Below, piece after piece: positions 2,766 through 29,036 of a stretch of DNA of 29,036 nt. Position numbers and translations under genes: made by a program. This stretch comes from a virus. The stretch covers positions 1 through 29,036 of IMG/VR virus record IMGVR_UViG_3300049914_000074. The stretch is one strand, 5' to 3'. Under the pieces are notes generated by a model. The model made no database searches. It was not told the DNA's origin and worked only from the letters and a program-made list of their open reading frames with translations. Within the stretch, counting starts at the first letter, position 1. The number at the start of each line of letters is the position of its first letter.

Positions 2766-2963
2766 CTAGGGAATCGGCACGTAGGGCTTGATCAGATTCG
2801 GGTCGAGCGGCTGCCCGGTCTGGGCCTGGTAGGCGGCCAACGCCTTCGAAATGATATCCAGCAGAACCTCGATATCCTGTGGTACGGCGCCGCCGACTTT
2901 CTGTTGTGCCAAGATCGTCAGTGCCGCTTGCGCGATCAGCAAAAGCAATTGCACGGTATTCAC
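2766..2963 (-). CDS. Small phage protein with hydrophobic N-terminus
   Basis: A 65-residue protein starting at GTG 2963 (VNTVQLLLLIAQAALTILAQ) and ending in a TGQPLDPNLIKPYVPIP-like tail. The N-terminal 20 residues form one hydrophobic helix; the middle is a predicted amphipathic helix. I recall similar short proteins near phage lysis modules, but no function is known to me. The GTG overlaps the stop of the upstream lipoprotein (GTGA), so it is probably coupled to it. This is the last late gene on the minus strand before the early region. Confidence 0.65.
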   Translation of the reverse strand: MNTVQLLLLIAQAALTILAQQKVGGAVPQDIEVLLDIISKALAAYQAQTGQPLDPNLIKPYVPIP

Positions 2964-3316
2964 GGTTTCACCCCCAATTTCCGCAAGTCGAGAATGAACT
3001 GGTTTACGGCGATCACGGCAGCGTCGACCGCGGCTTTGGCATTTCCCTTATCCGCTTCAGTCTTCGCGGCCCGATAGCCCAGCCATGCATCTCGGAGTAG
3101 GTTGTAGGATTCCCCGGCCTTGTTGATGATGGCCTTGGCTTCTGCCGGCAGGGCGCCTTGCGCGAACGCAATCTTCGCGCTGTCGAGCACACTCTGGGCG
3201 ACGATCAGGGTATCGTAAGTGGCGCTGTCGAACTGGTCGACGGCTCCGGGATGGATTTTCACCTGGCACCCGTACAGGATGAGCGCCAGAAACAGAATCG
3301 GTATTGCTCGTTTCAT
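2960..3316 (-). CDS. Phage lipoprotein
   Basis: A 118-residue protein starting MKRAIPILFLALILYGC. The basic n-region, hydrophobic core and Cys17 in an LYGC lipobox (Tyr at -2 is unusual) indicate signal peptidase II processing and membrane anchoring. The mature part is helical and Ala-rich (AKAIINKAGESYNLLRDAWL, then AKTEADKGNAKAAVDAAVIA). The ATG at 3316 was chosen over an upstream one because AAAGGAG lies just before it. It sits downstream of the lysis genes, so an outer-membrane-acting lysis role (o-spanin analogue) is possible. However, it is longer than typical Rz1 proteins and lacks their proline richness. Confidence 0.75.
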   Translation of the reverse strand: MKRAIPILFLALILYGCQVKIHPGAVDQFDSATYDTLIVAQSVLDSAKIAFAQGALPAEAKAIINKAGESYNLLRDAWLGYRAAKTEADKGNAKAAVDAAVIAVNQFILDLRKLGVKP

Positions 3317-3344
3317 ACTGCTCCTTTCAGGACAAAGATTTTTC

Positions 3345-3373
3345 TTGACATATCTAACAACGTTTGCTATTAT
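3345..3373 (+). promoter_or_regulatory. Strong sigma70 promoter of plus-strand cassette 1
   Basis: TTGACA (3345-3350), a 17-bp spacer and TATTAT (3368-3373): a perfect -35 and a 5/6 -10. The expected start near 3380 lies about 65 bp upstream of the first cassette gene. It is the best promoter seen in the window. Confidence 0.85.
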
Positions 3374-3444
3374 CATCTCGTAAGCTCACCTAAGAGCTAC
3401 CGGGATCCCCACCCCGAGAGTGGCGGAGGAAAGGCAGATCCAAA

Positions 3445-3951
3445 ATGGCCAGCAAAAAAATCACCGCAGCAGAAGTACACTTTGACGGGCGAGTCTTTGA
3501 GCACATCCTTGCGCAGCATGGCGATGACCTTGTCGCTCACCTTAATGGTTCCCCTGCGGGACAGGCAGCCGGCGGCAATGCCGCCAAAATCCATCGCATC
3601 CTTGATGTCGAGGTAATTGAGTCCCGGCCTTGCACGGGATACGAGGTGCACGATTACAACGGCCTTGTAAGTCGACACCGGTTTGCGCATCGCGCGATTG
3701 CCCGCGCCAACAAAGAGCAGAGCGAGGCCCGCGCCTATGCCTGCACGCCAAACGGACTTAAGCGCATCGGCGAGCGCAAGGGCGATGTGACTGAGGGCAA
3801 CATCTATGACGGTACGCGCTACCTGATCGACGGCAAGCAATATGTGCTGTGTGCCGACAATCATTTTGAGCGTGCGGAGTCCCGTGACACCAAAGGACAG
3901 CTCAATAGTTGGTATACCTACATCGCGGGAGAGGAGGCATCCAATGCGTAG
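3445..3951 (+). CDS. Cassette 1 protein A, unknown
   Basis: A 168-residue soluble-looking protein beginning MASKKITAAEVHFDGRVFEH. It has mixed charge and no transmembrane segment; notable stretches are IYDGTRYLIDGKQYVLCADN and the C-terminal LNSWYTYIAGEE. No known family is recognised. It is the first gene of a plus-strand cassette opposed to the surrounding minus-strand late genes. It has a near-consensus promoter about 65 bp upstream and a GAGGAAAGG ribosome-binding site. Its stop lies 8 nt inside the next gene. An overlapping minus-strand frame is rejected as a shadow. By position it looks like phage cargo expressed during lysogeny. Confidence 0.75.
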   Translation: MASKKITAAEVHFDGRVFEHILAQHGDDLVAHLNGSPAGQAAGGNAAKIHRILDVEVIESRPCTGYEVHDYNGLVSRHRFAHRAIARANKEQSEARAYACTPNGLKRIGERKGDVTEGNIYDGTRYLIDGKQYVLCADNHFERAESRDTKGQLNSWYTYIAGEEASNA

Positions 3952-4303
3952 CACCGTGATCATCCGCAAGCGCGGAGAGGGATACACATCGAATGTCACG
4001 GGCAAATTCGGCGGCGGGCACACCGGAGCTAGGTGTGGACTCACGCCGTTTGATGCGGCCGCACACGCTGCACAACTCATGATCAGGTACAGCCAGAGCA
4101 ATCCCGAGGGCGGCGATTTGATGGCACCGCCTGAAATCTTGGAGCTGGTGCCGGAGCACCTCAGATCGATCGCAGCAAAAACCGAGGACTATTTCCCCTG
4201 CCATCATTGCGACGGATCGGGCAAAATACTCGATGAGAATCACGTGGAGACAGCCGAGCTGTGCTCGTACTGTGATGGCACGGGGCAGGCATCCGACGAG
4301 TAG
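3944..4303 (+). CDS. Cassette 1 protein B, DnaJ-type zinc-finger protein
   Basis: A 119-residue protein. The C-terminus carries two CxxCxGxG motifs, CHHCDGSG and CSYCDGTG, separated by about 19 residues. This pair matches the zinc-coordinating repeats of the DnaJ cysteine-rich domain and would bind one Zn ion. The N-terminal part (STVIIRKRGEGYTSNVTGKF) is beta-like and not recognised; there is no J domain. It may bind a partner protein or nucleic acid through the zinc module. The ATG at 3944 overlaps the upstream stop by 8 nt and follows GAGGAGG, so translation is probably coupled. It belongs to the plus-strand cassette driven from 3345-3373. Confidence 0.75.
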   Translation: MRSTVIIRKRGEGYTSNVTGKFGGGHTGARCGLTPFDAAAHAAQLMIRYSQSNPEGGDLMAPPEILELVPEHLRSIAAKTEDYFPCHHCDGSGKILDENHVETAELCSYCDGTGQASDE

Positions 4304-4311
4304 CAGTTTCC

Positions 4312-4346
4312 TTTTGCCCGCCCGTGGGCCTTGTACGCGGGCAAAA
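4312..4346 (+). promoter_or_regulatory. Perfect 10-bp hairpin ahead of cassette 1 gene C
   Basis: TTTTGCCCGC (4312-4321) pairs perfectly with GCGGGCAAAA (4337-4346) around a 15-nt loop. On the plus transcript the 3' arm reaches the first in-frame ATG and lies next to the second (4352). It could therefore restrict initiation of the following gene. It is not an intrinsic terminator, because the 3' arm ends in A rather than U. Confidence 0.6.
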
Positions 4347-4351
4347 TGCTT

Positions 4352-4504
4352 ATGGACCCCGTAACCAAATACCTCTCCGAACGCGGCAGGATCGCAGGCA
4401 GCGCAAAGAGCCCTAGAAAGACTCGAGCTTGCCGGCGCAACGCGAAAAAGGGCGGCTGGCCGAAGGGACGGAAGCGCGGGCCGCGCAAGGCAAAACCCTC
4501 GTAG
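4352..4504 (+). CDS. Cassette 1 protein C, small basic KKGG protein
   Basis: A 50-residue, very basic protein beginning MDPVTKYLSERGRIAGSAKS and continuing through KTRACRRNAKKGG into a Lys/Arg/Pro/Gly-rich tail. From memory it resembles a broad group of tiny phage and bacterial proteins with KGG motifs and alternating Arg/Lys, presumed nucleic-acid binding. An ATG two codons upstream (4346) is possible, but MDP matches the start of the related protein at 8357 (MKDP). The ribosome-binding site is weak and a hairpin lies immediately upstream, so expression may be controlled. Its 3' end overlaps the minus-strand gene at 4413-4679 tail to tail. Confidence 0.6.
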   Translation: MDPVTKYLSERGRIAGSAKSPRKTRACRRNAKKGGWPKGRKRGPRKAKPS

Positions 4505-4679
4505 TTTTCAGAATACTGGCGATTTCCCCGTCAGAGATGCCAATAACCGACTTACATTTCAAGCATTCCTTGTGCGGGATTCCGTTCAGATCGTAGACCA
4601 CGAGTTCCTCGCCGTCACACTCGGGGAAGATGTCGGGACCGGTGTAAAACACGTCAGCCGGTGGAACGCGGTGCACCAT
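4413..4679 (-). CDS. Small phage protein with CxxC motif
   Basis: An 88-residue frame starting MVHRVPPADVFYTGPDIFPE. The first 60 residues look protein-like (GEELVVYDLNGIPHKECLKC) and contain one CxxC that could bind metal only as half of a site. The last 30 residues lie opposite the plus-strand KKGG gene and have a shadow-like composition, so the real product may be shorter or the C-terminus uncertain. A GGTTGGTGGG ribosome-binding region precedes the ATG at 4679, just after the stop of the upstream lysis-region gene. No family is recognised. Confidence 0.5.
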   Translation of the reverse strand: MVHRVPPADVFYTGPDIFPECDGEELVVYDLNGIPHKECLKCKSVIGISDGEIASILKTTRVLPCAARASVPSASRPFSRCAGKLESF

Positions 4680-5195: not shown

Positions 5196-5446
5196 GGTTT
5201 GACCTCTTCTTTTGGCGTGATCGTTGTGGTGGTCTGGACGCTCTGAGTTGAGTCCGTCTGCTGCGTCGTATGCGTGATGCCGCGCAGTAAGGCGCCGACG
5301 AGCCCGGTCACGGCACTTCCGAATATCCCAACGTAGGATGGCTCGGCGTGCCAATGGATAAGTAGCAGGATTACCGCCGAACAAAAGAAAATCATCCCGC
5401 AAAGTACGATCTTCTCGTCAAGCATCCACTCCCAAATGCTTCTCAT
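5192..5446 (-). CDS. Holin-like two-transmembrane protein
   Basis: An 84-residue protein starting MRSIWEWMLDEKIVLCGMIF. Two hydrophobic segments (residues about 13-33 and 38-58) are joined by a short loop (HAEPS). A polar Thr/Gln/Ser-rich C-terminal tail follows, ending PKEEVKP. Small size, two transmembrane helices and a charged C-terminus fit class II holins. The gene lies directly downstream of the GH24 endolysin, sharing ATGA with its stop. The ATG at 5446 follows GGAGGCTGT. Holins are too diverse for a firm name, but size, topology and position agree. Confidence 0.7.
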   Translation of the reverse strand: MRSIWEWMLDEKIVLCGMIFFCSAVILLLIHWHAEPSYVGIFGSAVTGLVGALLRGITHTTQQTDSTQSVQTTTTITPKEEVKP

Positions 5447-5877
5447 ACAGCCTCCTGAAATATTCCAGTTCTGATTTGTTCCGAAAGTCTCAGCGCCCTG
5501 GCTCCTACCTGTTTGGCCCATCTCGAGTCGAGCGCTTCACGGGCGGCCGTCTCCCAATCATCTACGGCGAGAGCTGCGAGCATTCCCCTGAAGCCAGCCA
5601 GCCGAGAGATCCCGAGATTGAACGCCATATTGACCAGCGCGGCCTTCCGCGCATCGTCCAAATCCTTGAAGCAGGGGATTAGGCGCTGACAGTCATCCCA
5701 TGCGGCTGACAGATCGTTTATGAGGAGCTCTGCTGCTTCTGATTCACGGATGCCAACGTCCTGCAGGTTTCGGCCATAGCCTATCGTCTGAACTCCAACG
5801 CTATCGGCATATGGATACTGCCGGAATCCCTCGTCGCGCTTGACCTGCTCAATGAGTCTTTTGGGGATGTCCCTCAT
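5443..5877 (-). CDS. Endolysin, T4-type lysozyme (GH24)
   Basis: A 144-residue muramidase that hydrolyses the MurNAc-GlcNAc bond of peptidoglycan at the end of infection. The GH24 catalytic triad has the T4 lysozyme spacing: Glu16 in RDEGF, Asp25 in YADS, Thr31 in QTIGYG (9 and 6 residues apart, as E11/D20/T26 in T4). The C-terminal LVNMAFNLGISRLAGF and ALDSRWAKQVGARA motifs are also typical. There is no signal peptide or SAR segment, so export to the periplasm would need the adjacent holin. The start overlaps the stop of the upstream two-TM protein and the stop overlaps the holin start, forming a tight lysis cassette. Confidence 0.95.
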   Translation of the reverse strand: MRDIPKRLIEQVKRDEGFRQYPYADSVGVQTIGYGRNLQDVGIRESEAAELLINDLSAAWDDCQRLIPCFKDLDDARKAALVNMAFNLGISRLAGFRGMLAALAVDDWETAAREALDSRWAKQVGARALRLSEQIRTGIFQEAV

Positions 5878-8319: not shown

Positions 8320-8349
8320 TTGACAAACTCCTATGCGTAGCGCTACGCT
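8320..8349 (+). promoter_or_regulatory. Promoter region of plus-strand cassette 2
   Basis: TTGACA (8320-8325) is a perfect -35 element. A weaker -10 candidate, TACGCT, follows after 18 bp at 8344-8349 and overlaps the 14-bp palindrome. An imperfect -10 under a palindrome is what a regulated promoter might look like. Confidence 0.5.
8335..8348. promoter_or_regulatory. 14-bp perfect palindrome, candidate operator
   Basis: GCGTAGCGCTACGC is a perfect palindrome between the -35 element and the start codon of cassette 2, overlapping the putative -10. CTATGCGT occurs twice around it (8331-8338 and 8348-8355). A dimeric repressor site is the simplest reading. Confidence 0.6.
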
Positions 8350-8356
8350 ATGCGTC

Positions 8357-8491
8357 ATGAAAGATCCAAGTGCCGTTAAATTGGGTCGCAAAGGCGGAAC
8401 CGCCAGAGCGAAGAAGTTATCCAAAAAACAACGTTCTGATAGTGCCCGCAAGGCCGCAAGGGCTCGCTGGGCGAAGAAGAGGAAATCATGA
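8357..8491 (+). CDS. Cassette 2 protein A, small basic GRKGG protein
   Basis: A 44-residue, highly basic protein: MKDPSAVKLGRKGGTARAKK, then LSKKQRSDSARKAARARWAK and KRKS. The LGRKGG-RA-LS-R-AR-AA-ARW pattern is one I recall from many tiny bacterial and phage proteins, presumed DNA- or RNA-binding and never, to my knowledge, characterised. It is the first gene of a two-gene cassette opposed to the minus-strand late operon. Its start lies 9 bp after a perfect palindrome, which suggests possible autoregulation. Its stop overlaps the next start (ATGA). Compare the KKGG protein at 4352. Confidence 0.7.
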   Translation: MKDPSAVKLGRKGGTARAKKLSKKQRSDSARKAARARWAKKRKS

Positions 8492-8955
8492 AAAGAATTG
8501 TTTTGGCTGTGCTCTTTATATTGTGTGCTGACGTGGTTGTGGCACAGGACAATCTCTATTCCGACTTTCAGATGTTCTTTCACGGAGCGGCGATCCTGTC
8601 TCCCGTAGACGGTCCCGCGATTGTCGGTGCGGTCACTGTAGAACGGCAAGAATTGATGGTTGATCTGCCTTATGTTAACTGGTGGAACATCACCATTGCT
8701 CCGGGCTTCGGAAATCTTGAATCCCTTCGCACTCTGGTCGGCAAAAACCTTTCTGTGTTCTATTGCATCCCAAACAAATCCGGCTCTATAAAGATCGTTC
8801 TGGCCGAAACGGATTTGGTCATCATCCCTTCCGTCAAGTCGATTCGGGATCTCTTTGCAAGGCTGGCCGACCGAGAAATCAGCGGTCGAAGATCGGCGAC
8901 CTTGCAAATTGTCGGAGATACAATCGAACTTCATATTTTCCCTATGGCACAGTGA
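8488..8955 (+). CDS. Cassette 2 protein B, secreted protein of unknown function
   Basis: A 155-residue protein with a Sec signal peptide (MKRIVLAVLFILCADVVVAQ; likely cleavage after VVA). The mature part, about 136 residues, is soluble-looking and alternates beta strands and short helices (AIVGAVTVERQELMVDLPYV, then TLQIVGDTIELHIF). It has one Cys, so no internal disulfide. No family is recognised. It is coupled to the small basic gene by ATGA, with GAGGAAATC as ribosome-binding site. Its last 14 nt overlap the end of the tail hub gene tail to tail. A periplasmic cargo protein expressed by a prophage suggests lysogenic conversion or superinfection exclusion, but that is inference. Confidence 0.75.
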   Translation: MKRIVLAVLFILCADVVVAQDNLYSDFQMFFHGAAILSPVDGPAIVGAVTVERQELMVDLPYVNWWNITIAPGFGNLESLRTLVGKNLSVFYCIPNKSGSIKIVLAETDLVIIPSVKSIRDLFARLADREISGRRSATLQIVGDTIELHIFPMAQ

Positions 8956-13900: not shown

Positions 13901-16687
13901 TTAGCTCGTCAGCGTTCCGGGACTCAGTTGCAACGCGGTCAGTTCCCGGCGATTGTAATTCGACCTCGTCGCACTCGTTGCCGCGGATTGCACCACGCGA
14001 GGATTATTTACTATGGTGCTCACAGCCTCGCCCTGCATGATCTTCGTGGTCGCCGGTCCATCGAGCTTGATGTTGAGCGTCATCGAACTGCCGGCAGCCC
14101 CCGCTTTGAGTCCGGTGCCAGGTAGCCCCGGCAGAGTTCCGCCGACCCCAGGCTGAATGGTGCCGCCGGAATAAGTAGGCTGCTGATACAGGCCCCCGCC
14201 GCTCTGAATTAGCGTTGAAGAGGTCATCTGCGCTGGCAGGCCCGCCGTACCCTGCCCCGTGGTCATGGCGTACAGGCGCACCAGGTCGGCAACCTGCTGG
14301 CTACGAATTGCCATGTCGAGGTTGCCTCCGTACCCCTGCTTCGCCATGTCGACGATCTGCTGGAGGACGCCCTTGTCCTTGATGTCCACGCCGTAACAGG
14401 CCTTGATCTTCTCCCGCGCCTTCTCCGTCGCGCCCTTGAAAAGCATTCGGATTAAACCCAATTCAAAACCAAAAACCGCCCCAATTGCCGCACCTTCTGG
14501 ACCGCCAAGGGCCATGCCAATCATCGCTCCACCACCAGAAGTCTTAGCCGCTCCCGTCCATCCACCCTGCCGCAGACCGGAGATAGCCAGCATGGCCCCG
14601 CCCATCATCAGCCCACCAGCTACGGCACTGCCTGCAGTGGACTCCCCGAAGGCGCCCATCTTGCCGCCGAAGGGTTTCAAGCCGCCAAGGAACCCCGTAT
14701 TGCCACTTTTAGCGGTCCCCCCGTACATATCTTCTATCTCACCGCCACCAATGACTTGGCTCATCTTTCCGGTGCTACCGATTATCGGCGGTCCGCCACT
14801 ACCTCTCAGACCGCTTAACCAACCAAAAAGGCCCCCACCGCCACCAGCACTGCCGCCATTTCCAGATGGCGCAAACGGAGGAGTTCCCCAACCTCCACCG
14901 CCTCCGCCTCCGCCTCCTCCGCCTGCGAAGATGCCGCCGAGGATTCCTCCGAAACCTCCACCGCCTCCGCCTCCGGCAGGCACTCCAGCACCTTGTGCCC
15001 TCTGTCCCGTAAAGAGATAGACGGCAAGATGTTGGAATGCCATGCGAACGGGCACGAGAAAGATGTTTTCGAAATCATGCAGAAGATTTTTCCAGGTGTT
15101 CGGACTGTTCGAGCGCAGATCATCCCAGACGCGCCCCGCAGCTTCTCGGATGGTATTTATCCGAGTCAGTGCCTCCTGTTGCTGCGCTTTCCAAATCTCC
15201 GCCGTGGCTTTCTTCTGAACGTCCCCCTCCTCGGTGGCGCGGGAGTCTGCCATCTGCTTCCGTTTCGCGGCGATGACGTCCTGTGTGGTCTGGTCCAACT
15301 CCGTGTCGAGCGGAAGGGCACGGATCAGCGCGTCTATTTCTTTCTGCAGGTTCAGTTCTTCCAACTTGTACTTATTCTTTATCTCCGTCATGCCAAGGTC
15401 CGCTTCCAGGGCGGCTTTGCGTTCGGCGATCATCATGCGCTCCCTGGCATTCGTCCCGACACCCATGGCGTTGATCTCTGTCTCCATTTTTGCGCGCGCG
15501 CTATCAGCCTTGATCTGATCGACGATGATGTCTTCGCCCATCTTCTTGCGGAACTGGTACTCGGTCTCCATGGCGTTGAGATCTTCCGCAGACCTCCTGG
15601 CCATCTCGGCTTCTTGTTCCGATTTGTATTTGTCCCCGGTGGCGGTTCGCTTCCGCCAATCTTCCATTTGGCCAGCGACCATCAATTCAAGGCTTTCCTT
15701 TTGTCCCGCTTTGATGTCCTCCAGTATCTGCAGCCGCAGGCGGTCGGTCACCAGATTGCGCTCGGAAATTGCAGCGATCAGGCCGTAATTGTTCGCGAGG
15801 GCTTCCGCTTTGATCAGTTCCTGTTTTTTGATATCGACCATCAGGGCCGCGATTTCCTTGCCCTTACTCTGCGCATCGATGGAGGTCAAGGACAGTTCGA
15901 TTTTCTTCCGCTCCTGGTTCTCTATAATCTTCCCCTGATCGATCCAGGCCACCTTTTCTGCCTCGCGGACCCTGTCCTGCGCGGCCTGATATTTCTTGCC
16001 CGCCTCCTCGATATCCTTATCTGACACGCCGAACATCGCACCCAGACCACCCCCGATGCCGAGGCCATACATCCCACCAGCTTCCCGTTGTTGTGTCTGA
16101 GCACCCTGCTCCTGTTGTTGCCTCTGCAACTTCTTCAGTTCGCTTCCAAACTCGCCGGCGGCCTTCTTTGCATCCTGGAGCTTTTCTTCTGCCTGACGGA
16201 GTTCGACCGTCATTTTTGTCACTCCACCCAAACCCATCAGTTCGAACTCGTGGCGGATTGTCTTGACGTGCTCGACATACTTCTTCGTTGTCTCCTCGAA
16301 TTCCTTCGTCTGCTCCTTTATTTCTTTGGCGTTTGTGGCCCATTCCCACAGTTTTTCGCCTGCCTTAAATATCGCGACTCCGATCGCGGCGAAAGCAGCC
16401 ACATTGAACGCGCCCATCAGGACCGGTCCCAGGAGTTCGCTTCGAGCCAACATTGTATTGACGGCCCTCGGCAACTTTATGCCGATTTCCTGTTCCAGCA
16501 TCATGGCAGCGCCGCGCGCTTGCCACATGCTCACACCCATCTGATCCATGCCGCCGCCCATGCCCTTGGCGGAAGAGAGGGCCTGGCGCTCCATAGTAGA
16601 CAGACTGGTATTTACGGACCGGATATCACGGTTCGCCCCGGTGGCATCAACGTCGATGACGAGTTGGAGTGTATTGTCAGCGCCCAT
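13901..16687 (-). CDS. Tape measure protein
   Basis: A 928-residue protein that would set tail length and line the tail tube. The N-terminus (LQLVIDVDATGANRDIRSVN, then STMERQA) is typical of tape measure proteins. Hydrophobic segments at about 86-110 (GPVLMGAFNVAAFAAIGVAI) and 700-745 are separated by long coiled coils (about 125-215 and 235-540, rich in Lys/Glu/Gln). A Gly-rich stretch at about 565-640 contains runs of more than ten Gly. The C-terminus is Gly/Thr/Pro-rich. It lies immediately downstream of G/GT, and its ATG (16687) overlaps the end of the frameshifted T frame, as in lambda-like phages. A proline-rich plus-strand frame over the Gly-rich region is an artefact. Confidence 0.93.
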   Translation of the reverse strand: MGADNTLQLVIDVDATGANRDIRSVNTSLSTMERQALSSAKGMGGGMDQMGVSMWQARGAAMMLEQEIGIKLPRAVNTMLARSELLGPVLMGAFNVAAFAAIGVAIFKAGEKLWEWATNAKEIKEQTKEFEETTKKYVEHVKTIRHEFELMGLGGVTKMTVELRQAEEKLQDAKKAAGEFGSELKKLQRQQQEQGAQTQQREAGGMYGLGIGGGLGAMFGVSDKDIEEAGKKYQAAQDRVREAEKVAWIDQGKIIENQERKKIELSLTSIDAQSKGKEIAALMVDIKKQELIKAEALANNYGLIAAISERNLVTDRLRLQILEDIKAGQKESLELMVAGQMEDWRKRTATGDKYKSEQEAEMARRSAEDLNAMETEYQFRKKMGEDIIVDQIKADSARAKMETEINAMGVGTNARERMMIAERKAALEADLGMTEIKNKYKLEELNLQKEIDALIRALPLDTELDQTTQDVIAAKRKQMADSRATEEGDVQKKATAEIWKAQQQEALTRINTIREAAGRVWDDLRSNSPNTWKNLLHDFENIFLVPVRMAFQHLAVYLFTGQRAQGAGVPAGGGGGGGFGGILGGIFAGGGGGGGGGGGWGTPPFAPSGNGGSAGGGGGLFGWLSGLRGSGGPPIIGSTGKMSQVIGGGEIEDMYGGTAKSGNTGFLGGLKPFGGKMGAFGESTAGSAVAGGLMMGGAMLAISGLRQGGWTGAAKTSGGGAMIGMALGGPEGAAIGAVFGFELGLIRMLFKGATEKAREKIKACYGVDIKDKGVLQQIVDMAKQGYGGNLDMAIRSQQVADLVRLYAMTTGQGTAGLPAQMTSSTLIQSGGGLYQQPTYSGGTIQPGVGGTLPGLPGTGLKAGAAGSSMTLNIKLDGPATTKIMQGEAVSTIVNNPRVVQSAATSATRSNYNRRELTALQLSPGTLTS

Positions 16688-17638
16688 TATTCTGTTTGGC
16701 CTTCTCTTCTTCGAATCGGTCCTGCTCTTTTTCGACGACCATCATCGCGTACAGCTCGTCGGCATCGATCTCATCGAGAGTCAAATGGACGCCTGTCTTT
16801 AAAATGGCGCGCAAATCCAAGGCCCTTCGCAGGAGCTGGCCCGCGTCGGAACTGTGCGCCGCATCCAGGCGATTAAGCGGGCAGTGGTCGCAGCGCGTCC
16901 CGTCGCCCGGGGAATCGTCGCAGAGGTTGACGTCGCACAGCTCCTCGCGCCTCAGGGTCCAATAGACGAGAAACCGGAGCGAGGGATTATCCGGCCACTC
17001 GTCCGCTAAAAATTTTCCGATCCGTCATCTCCCAGGAGTATCCGCGTCTGCTCCATCACCTTGGGAACGATGACGGCCTTGTGAACGATGGGGACCTCGC
17101 CGGCATATCCGTCTTTCGACACGGACAGTTTCTGATACGTGTCTGCCGCGGCCGCCAGGTTTATCGTGGTCTTGTTCCGGGATCCGGTGTCGATGGATTG
17201 GGTGATGGATTTTCTATAACGGAATTCTTCTTTGGCGGTGGGCATGCGCTGGGTGTGGGAGGTTACGATTCCAGCCAGCACGCGGAGGATGATTTTGAAG
17301 CAGTCGCCCTCGTGGATGACTTCGATCACTTCCGCCCGTTGCAGGCGGTCGAATATCGAAGAGGCTTCGTAGTTGTCAACCTCTATTCCGTCCTCCCCGA
17401 GGCGGATTTTCTTGAGGAGCTCGCCGTCGATTTCCTCGGTATCGGCAACGGTCGTTTCTGAGGATCGGTCGCCCAAAGATCTCGTGATGATCTGGCGTTT
17501 CGATTGTCTCTCGATCCATTCCTCATCGGTGGGGAATCGAACTGTGATGGTCTGGATACCCTTCGGGGTGCGGACCTTAATTCCGATCGGTCGACTCGCG
17601 TCAAAGACCGGCTTTGTTTCCTTCGTTTCCTCGCTCAT
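16677..17638 (-). CDS. Tail assembly chaperone GT (-1 frameshift product)
   Basis: Joins the G frame (17638 to the slippery site) to a second frame ending at 16677. The heptamer A_AAT_TTT sits one codon before the G stop, TAG. After a -1 slip translation continues as LADEWPDNPSLRFLVYWTLR and on for 110 residues, giving about 320 residues in total. The T frame has an in-frame TGA just upstream of the slip site and no early start codon, so it cannot be translated alone. It has four Cys within 20 residues (CDVNLC, then RCDHC), a possible zinc site, and a charged helical C-terminus. Its stop lies inside the tape measure start. As in lambda gpG/gpGT, the T part would recruit the tape measure to tail tube subunits. 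Confidence 0.85.
16975..17015 (-). promoter_or_regulatory. Programmed -1 frameshift signal
   Basis: Minus-strand slippery heptamer AAATTTT (17009-17015) in phase A_AAT_TTT, directly followed by the zero-frame TAG (17006-17008). From 17005 a stem can form: CGGACGAG with CTCG-c-TCCG, eight pairs with one bulge, ending at 16975. This is a plausible stimulatory structure, though the 3-nt spacer is shorter than usual. Confidence 0.8.
17006..17638 (-). CDS. Tail assembly chaperone G-like protein (zero frame)
   Basis: A 210-residue protein starting MSEETKETKPVFDASRPIGI. The N-terminal half (KVRTPKGIQTITVRFPTDEE, WIERQSKRQI) and the centre (EASSIFDRLQRAEVIEVIHE) are soluble and charged. The C-terminus ends LLGDDGSENF at a slippery sequence. 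Identification rests on position between tail tube and tape measure, size, and the frameshift into a second frame, the hallmark of lambda G/GT organisation. ATG 17638 was preferred over an upstream ATG because GGGAGG lies at good distance. Most ribosomes should terminate here, with a minority making GT. Confidence 0.8.
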   Translation of the reverse strand: MSEETKETKPVFDASRPIGIKVRTPKGIQTITVRFPTDEEWIERQSKRQIITRSLGDRSSETTVADTEEIDGELLKKIRLGEDGIEVDNYEASSIFDRLQRAEVIEVIHEGDCFKIILRVLAGIVTSHTQRMPTAKEEFRYRKSITQSIDTGSRNKTTINLAAAADTYQKLSVSKDGYAGEVPIVHKAVIVPKVMEQTRILLGDDGSENF

Positions 17639-27904: not shown

Positions 27905-29036
27905 CTACGCGCCGTTCGAGTACACTATCGATCTCCAGTCAACCGCCTTGGCCGCGAAATCCAAGTAGGCGTAGAACTGAATCCCGAGGATGCCCTGCTC
28001 GTTGTCCTTGCGGATGAACTGCGGGCCTTCCGCTCCCTCCAGGTGGCAGTATTCGACGCAGGGTGCGATGTTCGGGTCGGCCACCATGAAGTAATGGACG
28101 ACGCCCGAGCCGTTGAGATCAAGTTCGCCGTCTGCCACGACTTCCAGACGGCCGGCAAACCAGTTCTGCGAAGCCGGTGCCAGGTTCGGGCCGGTGGCCG
28201 TGGTTACGGCGCGTGCCGTCGACTCGAGGGCTCTCGGCACGATCAGGTATTTCGGCACGAGGTTAAGGACGGTCACACCATCAATGCCGGTCTGGACGCC
28301 CATCAACCCAAACATGGAGTCGAACGCCGTGTTGCCCAGTACCCCAGTATCGGTATTGAAATGATAGGTGCCGTCGATCAGCGCCTTACCGTCCGTGAAC
28401 ACGTACGGAGCAGTTGTGCTGGCCGAATTTGCCAGGATCAAATAGACGACGTGGTTCTCCAACCTGGCCGCCTGCTGCCCGAAGGCACCGATCAAATCGT
28501 TGAAAGCGCCCAGGTCGTCGTTGATGAGCATCTGCCGCGTAAAGGAAACGCCGCGGCCGTAGGTGGCCAGGCTGTAGGTTTCCTTGGTATCTGCCATCAA
28601 GCCGATCGCGATCTGTGCGCCCTCTGCCACGGGCAAAAAGGTCGGCGCTTCGCCGAGCCGAACGCGGGTCATTGACTTGAAGTCGGGAGTGGTCGAAGAC
28701 TTGCACCAGATCCGATAACTCGGAGCGGCCGCGTTGTATTTGTTCAGGAGTTGCTTCCGGGCGGTCGCCTCCAGGACGGACGCGAAGTCCGCAGTCGTCT
28801 GCATGGCGAGGGTCGCCACCTCGTGCATCGGGATCGGACCCCGCACGTTACGCTGCAGCCTGACCGACTCTTCCGCGATCTGCTTAATGGAGAGCCGGCG
28901 GAACGGGTTGTCCGCGATCTGAAGTTTCTCCTTGGGATTCATCATCACGAAAACCGCGTCGGACATCAGTTCGCGCCGGGTATCGACCTCATCACTGACC
29001 AGTCGAATACCGCCAGGGCCGGTGTCGGGTAGGCCC
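27905..29036 (-). CDS. Major capsid protein, C-terminal part of a probable protease-capsid fusion; N-terminus off the right edge
   Basis: The visible frame runs to the window edge without a stop: GLPDTGPGGIRLVSDEVDTR, RRELMSDAVFVMMNPKEKLQ and so on, so the ATG at 28966 is probably internal. Key capsid-like motifs are TTADFASVLEATARKQLLNK, FKSMTRVRLGEAPTFLPVAE, ETYSLATYGRGVSFTRQMLI and NDDLGAFNDLIGAFGQQAAR. These are typical of the Mu-like head subunit in prohead protease/capsid fusion proteins, where a ClpP-type protease precedes the capsid domain. The DNPFRRLSIKQIAEESVRLQ segment corresponds to the linker/delta region. The C-terminus (GILGIQFYAYLDFAAKAVDW) is the usual last beta strand. It forms the icosahedral shell. 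Confidence 0.9.
   Translation of the reverse strand, partial: GLPDTGPGGIRLVSDEVDTRRELMSDAVFVMMNPKEKLQIADNPFRRLSIKQIAEESVRLQRNVRGPIPMHEVATLAMQTTADFASVLEATARKQLLNKYNAAAPSYRIWCKSSTTPDFKSMTRVRLGEAPTFLPVAEGAQIAIGLMADTKETYSLATYGRGVSFTRQMLINDDLGAFNDLIGAFGQQAARLENHVVYLILANSASTTAPYVFTDGKALIDGTYHFNTDTGVLGNTAFDSMFGLMGVQTGIDGVTVLNLVPKYLIVPRALESTARAVTTATGPNLAPASQNWFAGRLEVVADGELDLNGSGVVHYFMVADPNIAPCVEYCHLEGAEGPQFIRKDNEQGILGIQFYAYLDFAAKAVDWRSIVYSNGA

Follow-up and report, generated by a model that had tools for sequence, protein, structure and literature searches.

A putative counter-defence operon with a distant AcrIF5 homologue and a folded leader RNA in an uncultured phage

The analysis points to a modular counter-defence operon, most likely anti-CRISPR and carrying a distant AcrIF5 homologue, at positions 3345 to 4504 of a complete 29,036-bp IMG/VR virus record (the window), with a probability of roughly 0.6. 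The anti-CRISPR reading follows from the AcrIF5 fold and profile match of its second gene, an aca10 neighbour and gpG-adjacent sites among the relatives of that gene, the promoters, the leader RNA and the accessory status of the cassette.

Organization of the cassette

Three plus-strand genes are located within the minus-strand late genes of the window, which encode a capsid protein (27905-28966) of the capsid-protease fusion type (phrog_4523), tape measure and tail proteins, and an endolysin (5443-5877). The cassette is bordered by lysis genes on one side and by a lipoprotein gene (2960-3316, minus strand) on the other; the contig contains no integrase gene. The features of the cassette, all on the plus strand, are as follows.

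3345-3373, plus strand: sigma-70 promoter TTGACA-17-TATTAT, 11/12
3372-3452, plus strand: structured 5′ leader RNA, the window's putative member of a set common to 11 phage loci
3383-3398, plus strand: leader hairpin I, AGCTC-acctaa-GAGCT, whose stem is retained in most loci and whose sequence varies
3406-3427, plus strand: leader hairpin II, TCCCCACCCCGAGAGTGGCGGA, ungapped in 10 loci
3445-3951, plus strand: gene 1, encoding an orphan protein of 168 aa, an anti-defence candidate through its association
3944-4303, plus strand: gene 2, 119 aa, an AcrIF5-like domain plus a zinc module (basis: 14 further members, fold match, hhalign)
3944-4186, plus strand: AcrIF5-like domain (gene 2 residues 1-81; alignment A4, 15 sequences), where the relatives stop
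4193-4294, plus strand: C-terminal 4-Cys zinc module with two CxxCxGxG repeats, found within the gene-2 family in the window member only
4312-4346, plus strand: inverted repeat TTTTGCCCGC/GCGGGCAAAA between genes 2 and 3
4352-4504, plus strand: gene 3, a 50-aa basic protein of GGRP type

A sequence-only reading of the window had proposed three plus-strand frames, one with a DnaJ-type zinc module and one tiny and highly basic, directly behind a near-consensus promoter. The frames are retained with two corrections: genes 1 and 2 share 8 nt, and the most likely start codon of gene 3 is ATG 4352, since its homologue in phage contig L076 starts at the same codon, giving a gap of 48 nt after gene 2. 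The tiny basic protein is the product of gene 3, which overlaps the end of a minus-strand ORF (4413-4676). The zinc module does have two CxxCxGxG repeats, whose four cysteines make up only half of a DnaJ module. The inverted repeat at 4312-4346 was considered as a terminator and rejected, because no T-run follows it.

In comparison with the L076 homologues, synonymous codon changes number 37 in gene 2 and 14 in gene 3, against 12 and 5 nonsynonymous ones, respectively; the codon comparison indicates that both are coding and under purifying selection. The codon usage of gene 1 leaves its strand unsettled, because the plus-strand frame and an antisense frame of 234 aa obtain similar scores. Architecture favours the plus strand: this frame has a leader and a Shine-Dalgarno sequence, shares 8 nt with gene 2 and corresponds in position to a gene of L076.

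Relationship of gene 2 to AcrIF5

The predicted structure and profile comparisons support gene 2 well as a distant AcrIF5 homologue. Its AF2 model (pLDDT 75, with the N-domain mostly above 80) has AcrIF5 (7f45, 7eqg) as its top fold match among 350,542 PDB chains; the alignment to 7f45 has an E-value of 6.4e-4, a probability of 1.00, a TM of 0.76 on AcrIF5 and 23% identity over 78 columns, and the next non-AcrIF5 fold follows at an E-value of 0.08. Further, hhalign aligns the gene-2 family with JBD5 AcrIF5 at a probability of 78-80 (E about 1e-5, 33% identity over 45 columns), compared to at most 5.8 for 350 decoy ORFs and at most 9.8 for 150 shuffled AcrIF5 sequences. The relationship is a distant one, because AcrIF5 is missing from the results of a plain hmmsearch of PDB sequences with the family profile, even at E = 10. 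A HicB-like fold was also considered for gene 2, and the fold search gave it no support.

AcrIF5 is reported to bind to target-bound Cascade (DNA-bound Csy, type I-F) and to block Cas2/3 recruitment (PMC10286901); its matches in the phage collection come only from Pseudomonas phages, plus one record labelled 'Bacteriophage sp.'. Gene 2 resembles AcrIF5 (Pseudomonas phage JBD5 gp36; PDB 7EQG, 7F45) in its ~80-aa domain, predicted fold and profile match, and the gene-2 family shares with it a tight overlap with neighbouring genes and an operon of its own. The gpG-adjacent site is also common to both: JBD5 carries acrIE1-acrIF3-acrIF5-aca1 directly 3′ of a gpG-type gene, and in two Mu-like family members the gene either follows gpG (PF05069) after one small gene (L091) or adjoins it on the opposite strand (PF05069; L087), with position and phage type in each case taken from a short contig end. 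The window member differs in its identity to AcrIF5 of only 23-33% and in its C-terminal zinc module, and its setting differs in the absence of acrIF3 and aca1, in the phage and probably in the host. Fourteen relatives have the stand-alone size of about 80 aa; as the added zinc module takes the window protein beyond it, gene 2 is filed as AcrIF5-like and not as AcrIF5.

In L080, the family gene is overlapped by an HTH gene that matches PDB 7XI5 at E = 7e-17. This structure is that of Aca10, the subject of PMC9410881 as repressor of the acrIC7-acrIC6-aca10 operon of Pseudomonas citronellolis. L080 resembles that operon in its Aca10 homologue, which is paired with the family gene behind a 12/12 promoter; the window operon is without an HTH gene, and the Acr proteins are different ones. 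Overall, an HTH aca gene is directly adjacent in one of 15 loci (L080) and absent from the window cassette, which is therefore not filed as an acr-aca operon; its small acr-type genes do lie behind one promoter. A search of 3317-3444 for inverted repeats, to which an Aca would bind at the promoter, revealed short hairpins only and no repeat of at least 9 nt.

Distribution of the gene-2 family

Residues 1-81 of gene 2 define an undescribed phage family with 14 further members that are 63-84% identical, and Pfam, PHROGs and NCBIfam have no entry for it among those scanned. The first homologue (L073, 81 aa, 65%) came to light when 396 genomes from the phylum of an Acidobacteria MAG were searched with high sensitivity, and a search with the L073-containing alignment then yielded 14 IMG/VR contigs, including the truncated L083. 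The family alignment consists of 15 sequences (the window, 13 contigs and L073), and the relatives are metagenomic. All of them end near residue 80; the window protein alone continues into the two CxxCxGxG repeats. Across 219 genomes from the class of G710 (Methylobacter) and 301 from the phylum of G008, there was either no match or one weak match over the C-terminal part.

The family occurs in unrelated phages and at different sites, next to terminase (L076), in the lysis region (L080, L081 and L095) or by gpG (Mu-like L087 and L091). In the window, L080, L081, L095 and L097, the gene opposes neighbouring minus-strand genes. The partners behind the AcrIF5-like gene include the Aca10-type HTH gene at L080:8239-8499 and a zinc-ribbon protein gene at L079:8230-8394, where the window has a fused zinc module instead. 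The copy at L083:7931-8093 is decayed: its leader runs straight into the final third of the AcrIF5-like gene. The phage with the AcrIF5-like/aca10-like pair also carries a C4 antisense RNA and two tRNA genes (L080:13557-14453).

Similar folds may serve other functions, which counts against the anti-CRISPR reading. The cassette could be a generic moron whose gene-2 family shares the ancestry or fold of AcrIF5 and is directed at something else, such as a defence system other than CRISPR, a host regulator or superinfection exclusion. The moron architecture is solid, the identity of gene 2 to AcrIF5 is only 23-33%, and type I-F Acrs do not usually come with a zinc module or with a gene like gene 3; however, an aca10 gene sits beside the L080 member, the Mu-like members occupy an acr hot-spot position and the profile match is far above the decoys, leaving this explanation unlikely.

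Promoter and leader RNA

The TTGACA-17-TATTAT promoter, which had been recognised from the sequence, is the only site of at least 11/12 on either strand of the window, where shuffled sequences are expected to contain 0.05. Shuffling the 128-bp intergenic stretch produced a site of at least 11/12 in 9 of 20,000 trials. L076 has TTGCTA-17-TATTAT in the same place. Within 700 bp upstream of the family gene, sites of at least 10/12 are present in seven of 14 loci (0.68 in shuffles) and sites of at least 11/12 in four of 14 (0.05 in shuffles), and the L080 gene has a 12/12 promoter.

Between promoter and first gene, eight loci (L077, L079, L082, L083, L091, L093, L094 and L095) have the consensus CCTGATCC..CCAGGAGCG..CGGA..AAGATAGGRG.AACAGATCATG or close variants, and the L080 leader is a variant of it. 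A covariance model was built from eight leaders, with the window and L076 left out; it matches L080 at 39 bits and L076 at 20.1 bits, and its best match in the window is 3372-3452, a weak one at 16.3 bits (E = 0.013). The window leader is a divergent member of the set. No gaps interrupt hairpin II in 10 loci, among them the window and L076, and 95.7% of cells are paired; its covariation of 0.470 compares to 0.142 ± 0.048 in shuffles, none of 500 reaching it, and the signal collapses when the alignment is slid by one column. RNAalifold independently recovered hairpin II and, in the eight typical leaders, also found a 3-bp hairpin around the Shine-Dalgarno sequence with two compensating pairs. 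For hairpin I, sequences are unrelated and the stem is kept in most loci, every single case being weak.

The leader has no match in Rfam, only short chance matches in 50,697 phage records, and two weak, chance-like matches in 254 Pseudomonadota genomes. The window and L076 are nearly identical from the Shine-Dalgarno sequence into the first codons, GGAGGAAAGGCAGATCCAARATGGC, and the genes behind differ (168 and 134 aa); this near-shared sequence before different genes therefore suggests that the leader is a module whose first genes are swapped.

Aca2 bound to acr mRNA controls its translation. That system is similar to the present case in having a structured leader RNA before an acr-type operon, and differs in that Aca2 is absent here and the window leader is unrelated to any Rfam family; Aca2 forms a complex with RNA (PMC11239489). 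In archaeal viruses, strong common regulatory sequences precede diverse anti-defence genes (PMC11065993). The likeness is one promoter and leader module before different small genes, whereas the phages here are bacteriophages with a folded RNA leader and a sigma-70 promoter.

Genes 1 and 3

Gene 1 has no relative in Pfam, PHROGs, NCBIfam, PADLOC or PDB, or among phages, plasmids, and viral or genome contigs. Three weak matches were treated as chance: the first is antisense to a real 294-aa gene (L047), the second lies in an unrelated frame (L062) and the third in an RNA-polymerase-subunit-like frame (L063). Structure prediction, which had been suggested for this 168-residue protein, could be run and gave an AF2 model, made without relatives, that was unusable (pLDDT 47). 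Its slot in the L076 operon is occupied by a different gene, encoding 134 aa. The gene 3 homologue in L076 is 71% identical and directly 3′ of the gene-2 homologue, and further genomes have weaker matches. Relatives of the basic protein lie at L074:3523-3651 and L075:3656-4068, the latter comprising two gene-3-type copies with Cys knuckles (CPNC or CPHC) that adjoin RadC-like and resolvase genes. An NCBIfam scan of the neighbouring small genes found no known Acr.

Accessory status of the cassette

The window phage has capsid relatives in other contigs that are 84-86% identical. Three relatives that cover the corresponding region and have tail genes in common, G001 (28.9 kb), G008 (42 kb) and G009, lack all three cassette genes, and the cassette is therefore accessory (a "moron"); this is the outcome of the presence/absence comparison that the sequence-only reading had called for. 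In G001, the lipoprotein gene is directly 3′ of the lysis-region genes. G009 is a prophage in an Acidobacteria MAG contig, with an integrase followed by host genes; CBS-domain and PAS sensor kinase genes lie on the opposite strand immediately behind its endolysin region (L060/L061, contig positions 39545-41983), a comparable moron slot.

The window also contains a divergent HTH gene pair (1824-2513) with a TTGACA-18-TAGTAT site at 2072 on the minus strand, which is kept as a pair in G008 and is likely to be a lysogeny switch. A temperate life is plausible for the window phage, since the HTH pair is kept in one relative and another has an integrase. Elsewhere in its late genes, a second plus-strand pair (8333-8955) encodes a small K/R-rich protein that resembles phrog_2384 and a protein of 155 aa carrying a signal peptide, with no near-consensus promoter upstream. 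A minus-strand ORF with AARDAAWDAA repeats (478-1242) is open in several frames and matches phrog_8332 and phrog_18326, of unknown function. A 48-aa minus-strand frame (16677-16820), 45-70% conserved in seven relatives and just upstream of the tape measure, is probably the frameshifted portion of the tail assembly chaperone.

It is improbable that the three genes are ordinary early or late phage genes on the other strand by chance. Small unknown genes are common in phages and G001 has early genes just beyond the cassette region, yet these genes are absent in relatives with common capsid and tail genes, the family occupies different sites in unrelated phages, and the cassette has a promoter and leader of its own. 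A toxin-antitoxin or regulatory pair, with HTH or zinc partner genes and antitoxin-like small proteins, is more improbable still: the MqsA/HigA-like HTH in L080 and the zinc-ribbon gene 3′ of the L079 member would fit, but that HTH matches Aca10 far better than MqsA (7e-17 versus 8e-4), no toxin fold was found and no pair is constant.

Proposed mechanism and significance

According to the preferred counter-defence reading, the operon plan would be a strong promoter, a folded leader, a variable first gene, an AcrIF5-like core and a variable third gene. Transcription from the host sigma-70 promoter would be uncoupled from that of the late genes and would yield a short mRNA headed by the folded leader. 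The leader could stabilise the mRNA, as hairpin I sits at its expected 5′ end, or it may control translation near the Shine-Dalgarno sequence, possibly via an RNA-binding Aca by analogy. The gene 2 product would bind to a Cascade-type CRISPR complex and block nuclease recruitment, as AcrIF5 does; both this inhibitor role and the CRISPR type are drawn by analogy. The zinc module may add a second contact or dimerisation, and genes 1 and 3 probably encode additional proteins for anti-defence or regulation.

The cassette had earlier been read as having the architecture of a moron expressed from a prophage, where anti-phage or host-modifying functions are common. It is accessory and independently promoted, and its content points to counter-defence. 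As gene 2 is a distant homologue of an anti-CRISPR protein, it is probably the phage that benefits, against host CRISPR, and not a lysogen that faces other phages.

More tentatively, and at somewhat under even odds, the promoter and folded leader could be a cis-regulatory RNA not described before, a tag for exchangeable anti-defence genes in phages that are unrelated to one another. The genes in first position, the 168-aa orphan among them, and those in third position would then be swapped around the AcrIF5-like core. Because of this swapping, the leader could be used as bait for new anti-CRISPR or anti-defence proteins; a covarying leader before unrelated small genes would give a sequence bait where protein similarity fails. 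Moreover, the leader raises the question of RNA-level control of anti-CRISPR production. A divergent AcrIF5-like family in uncultured phages, one member having a zinc module, would extend the range in which this inhibitor fold is known.
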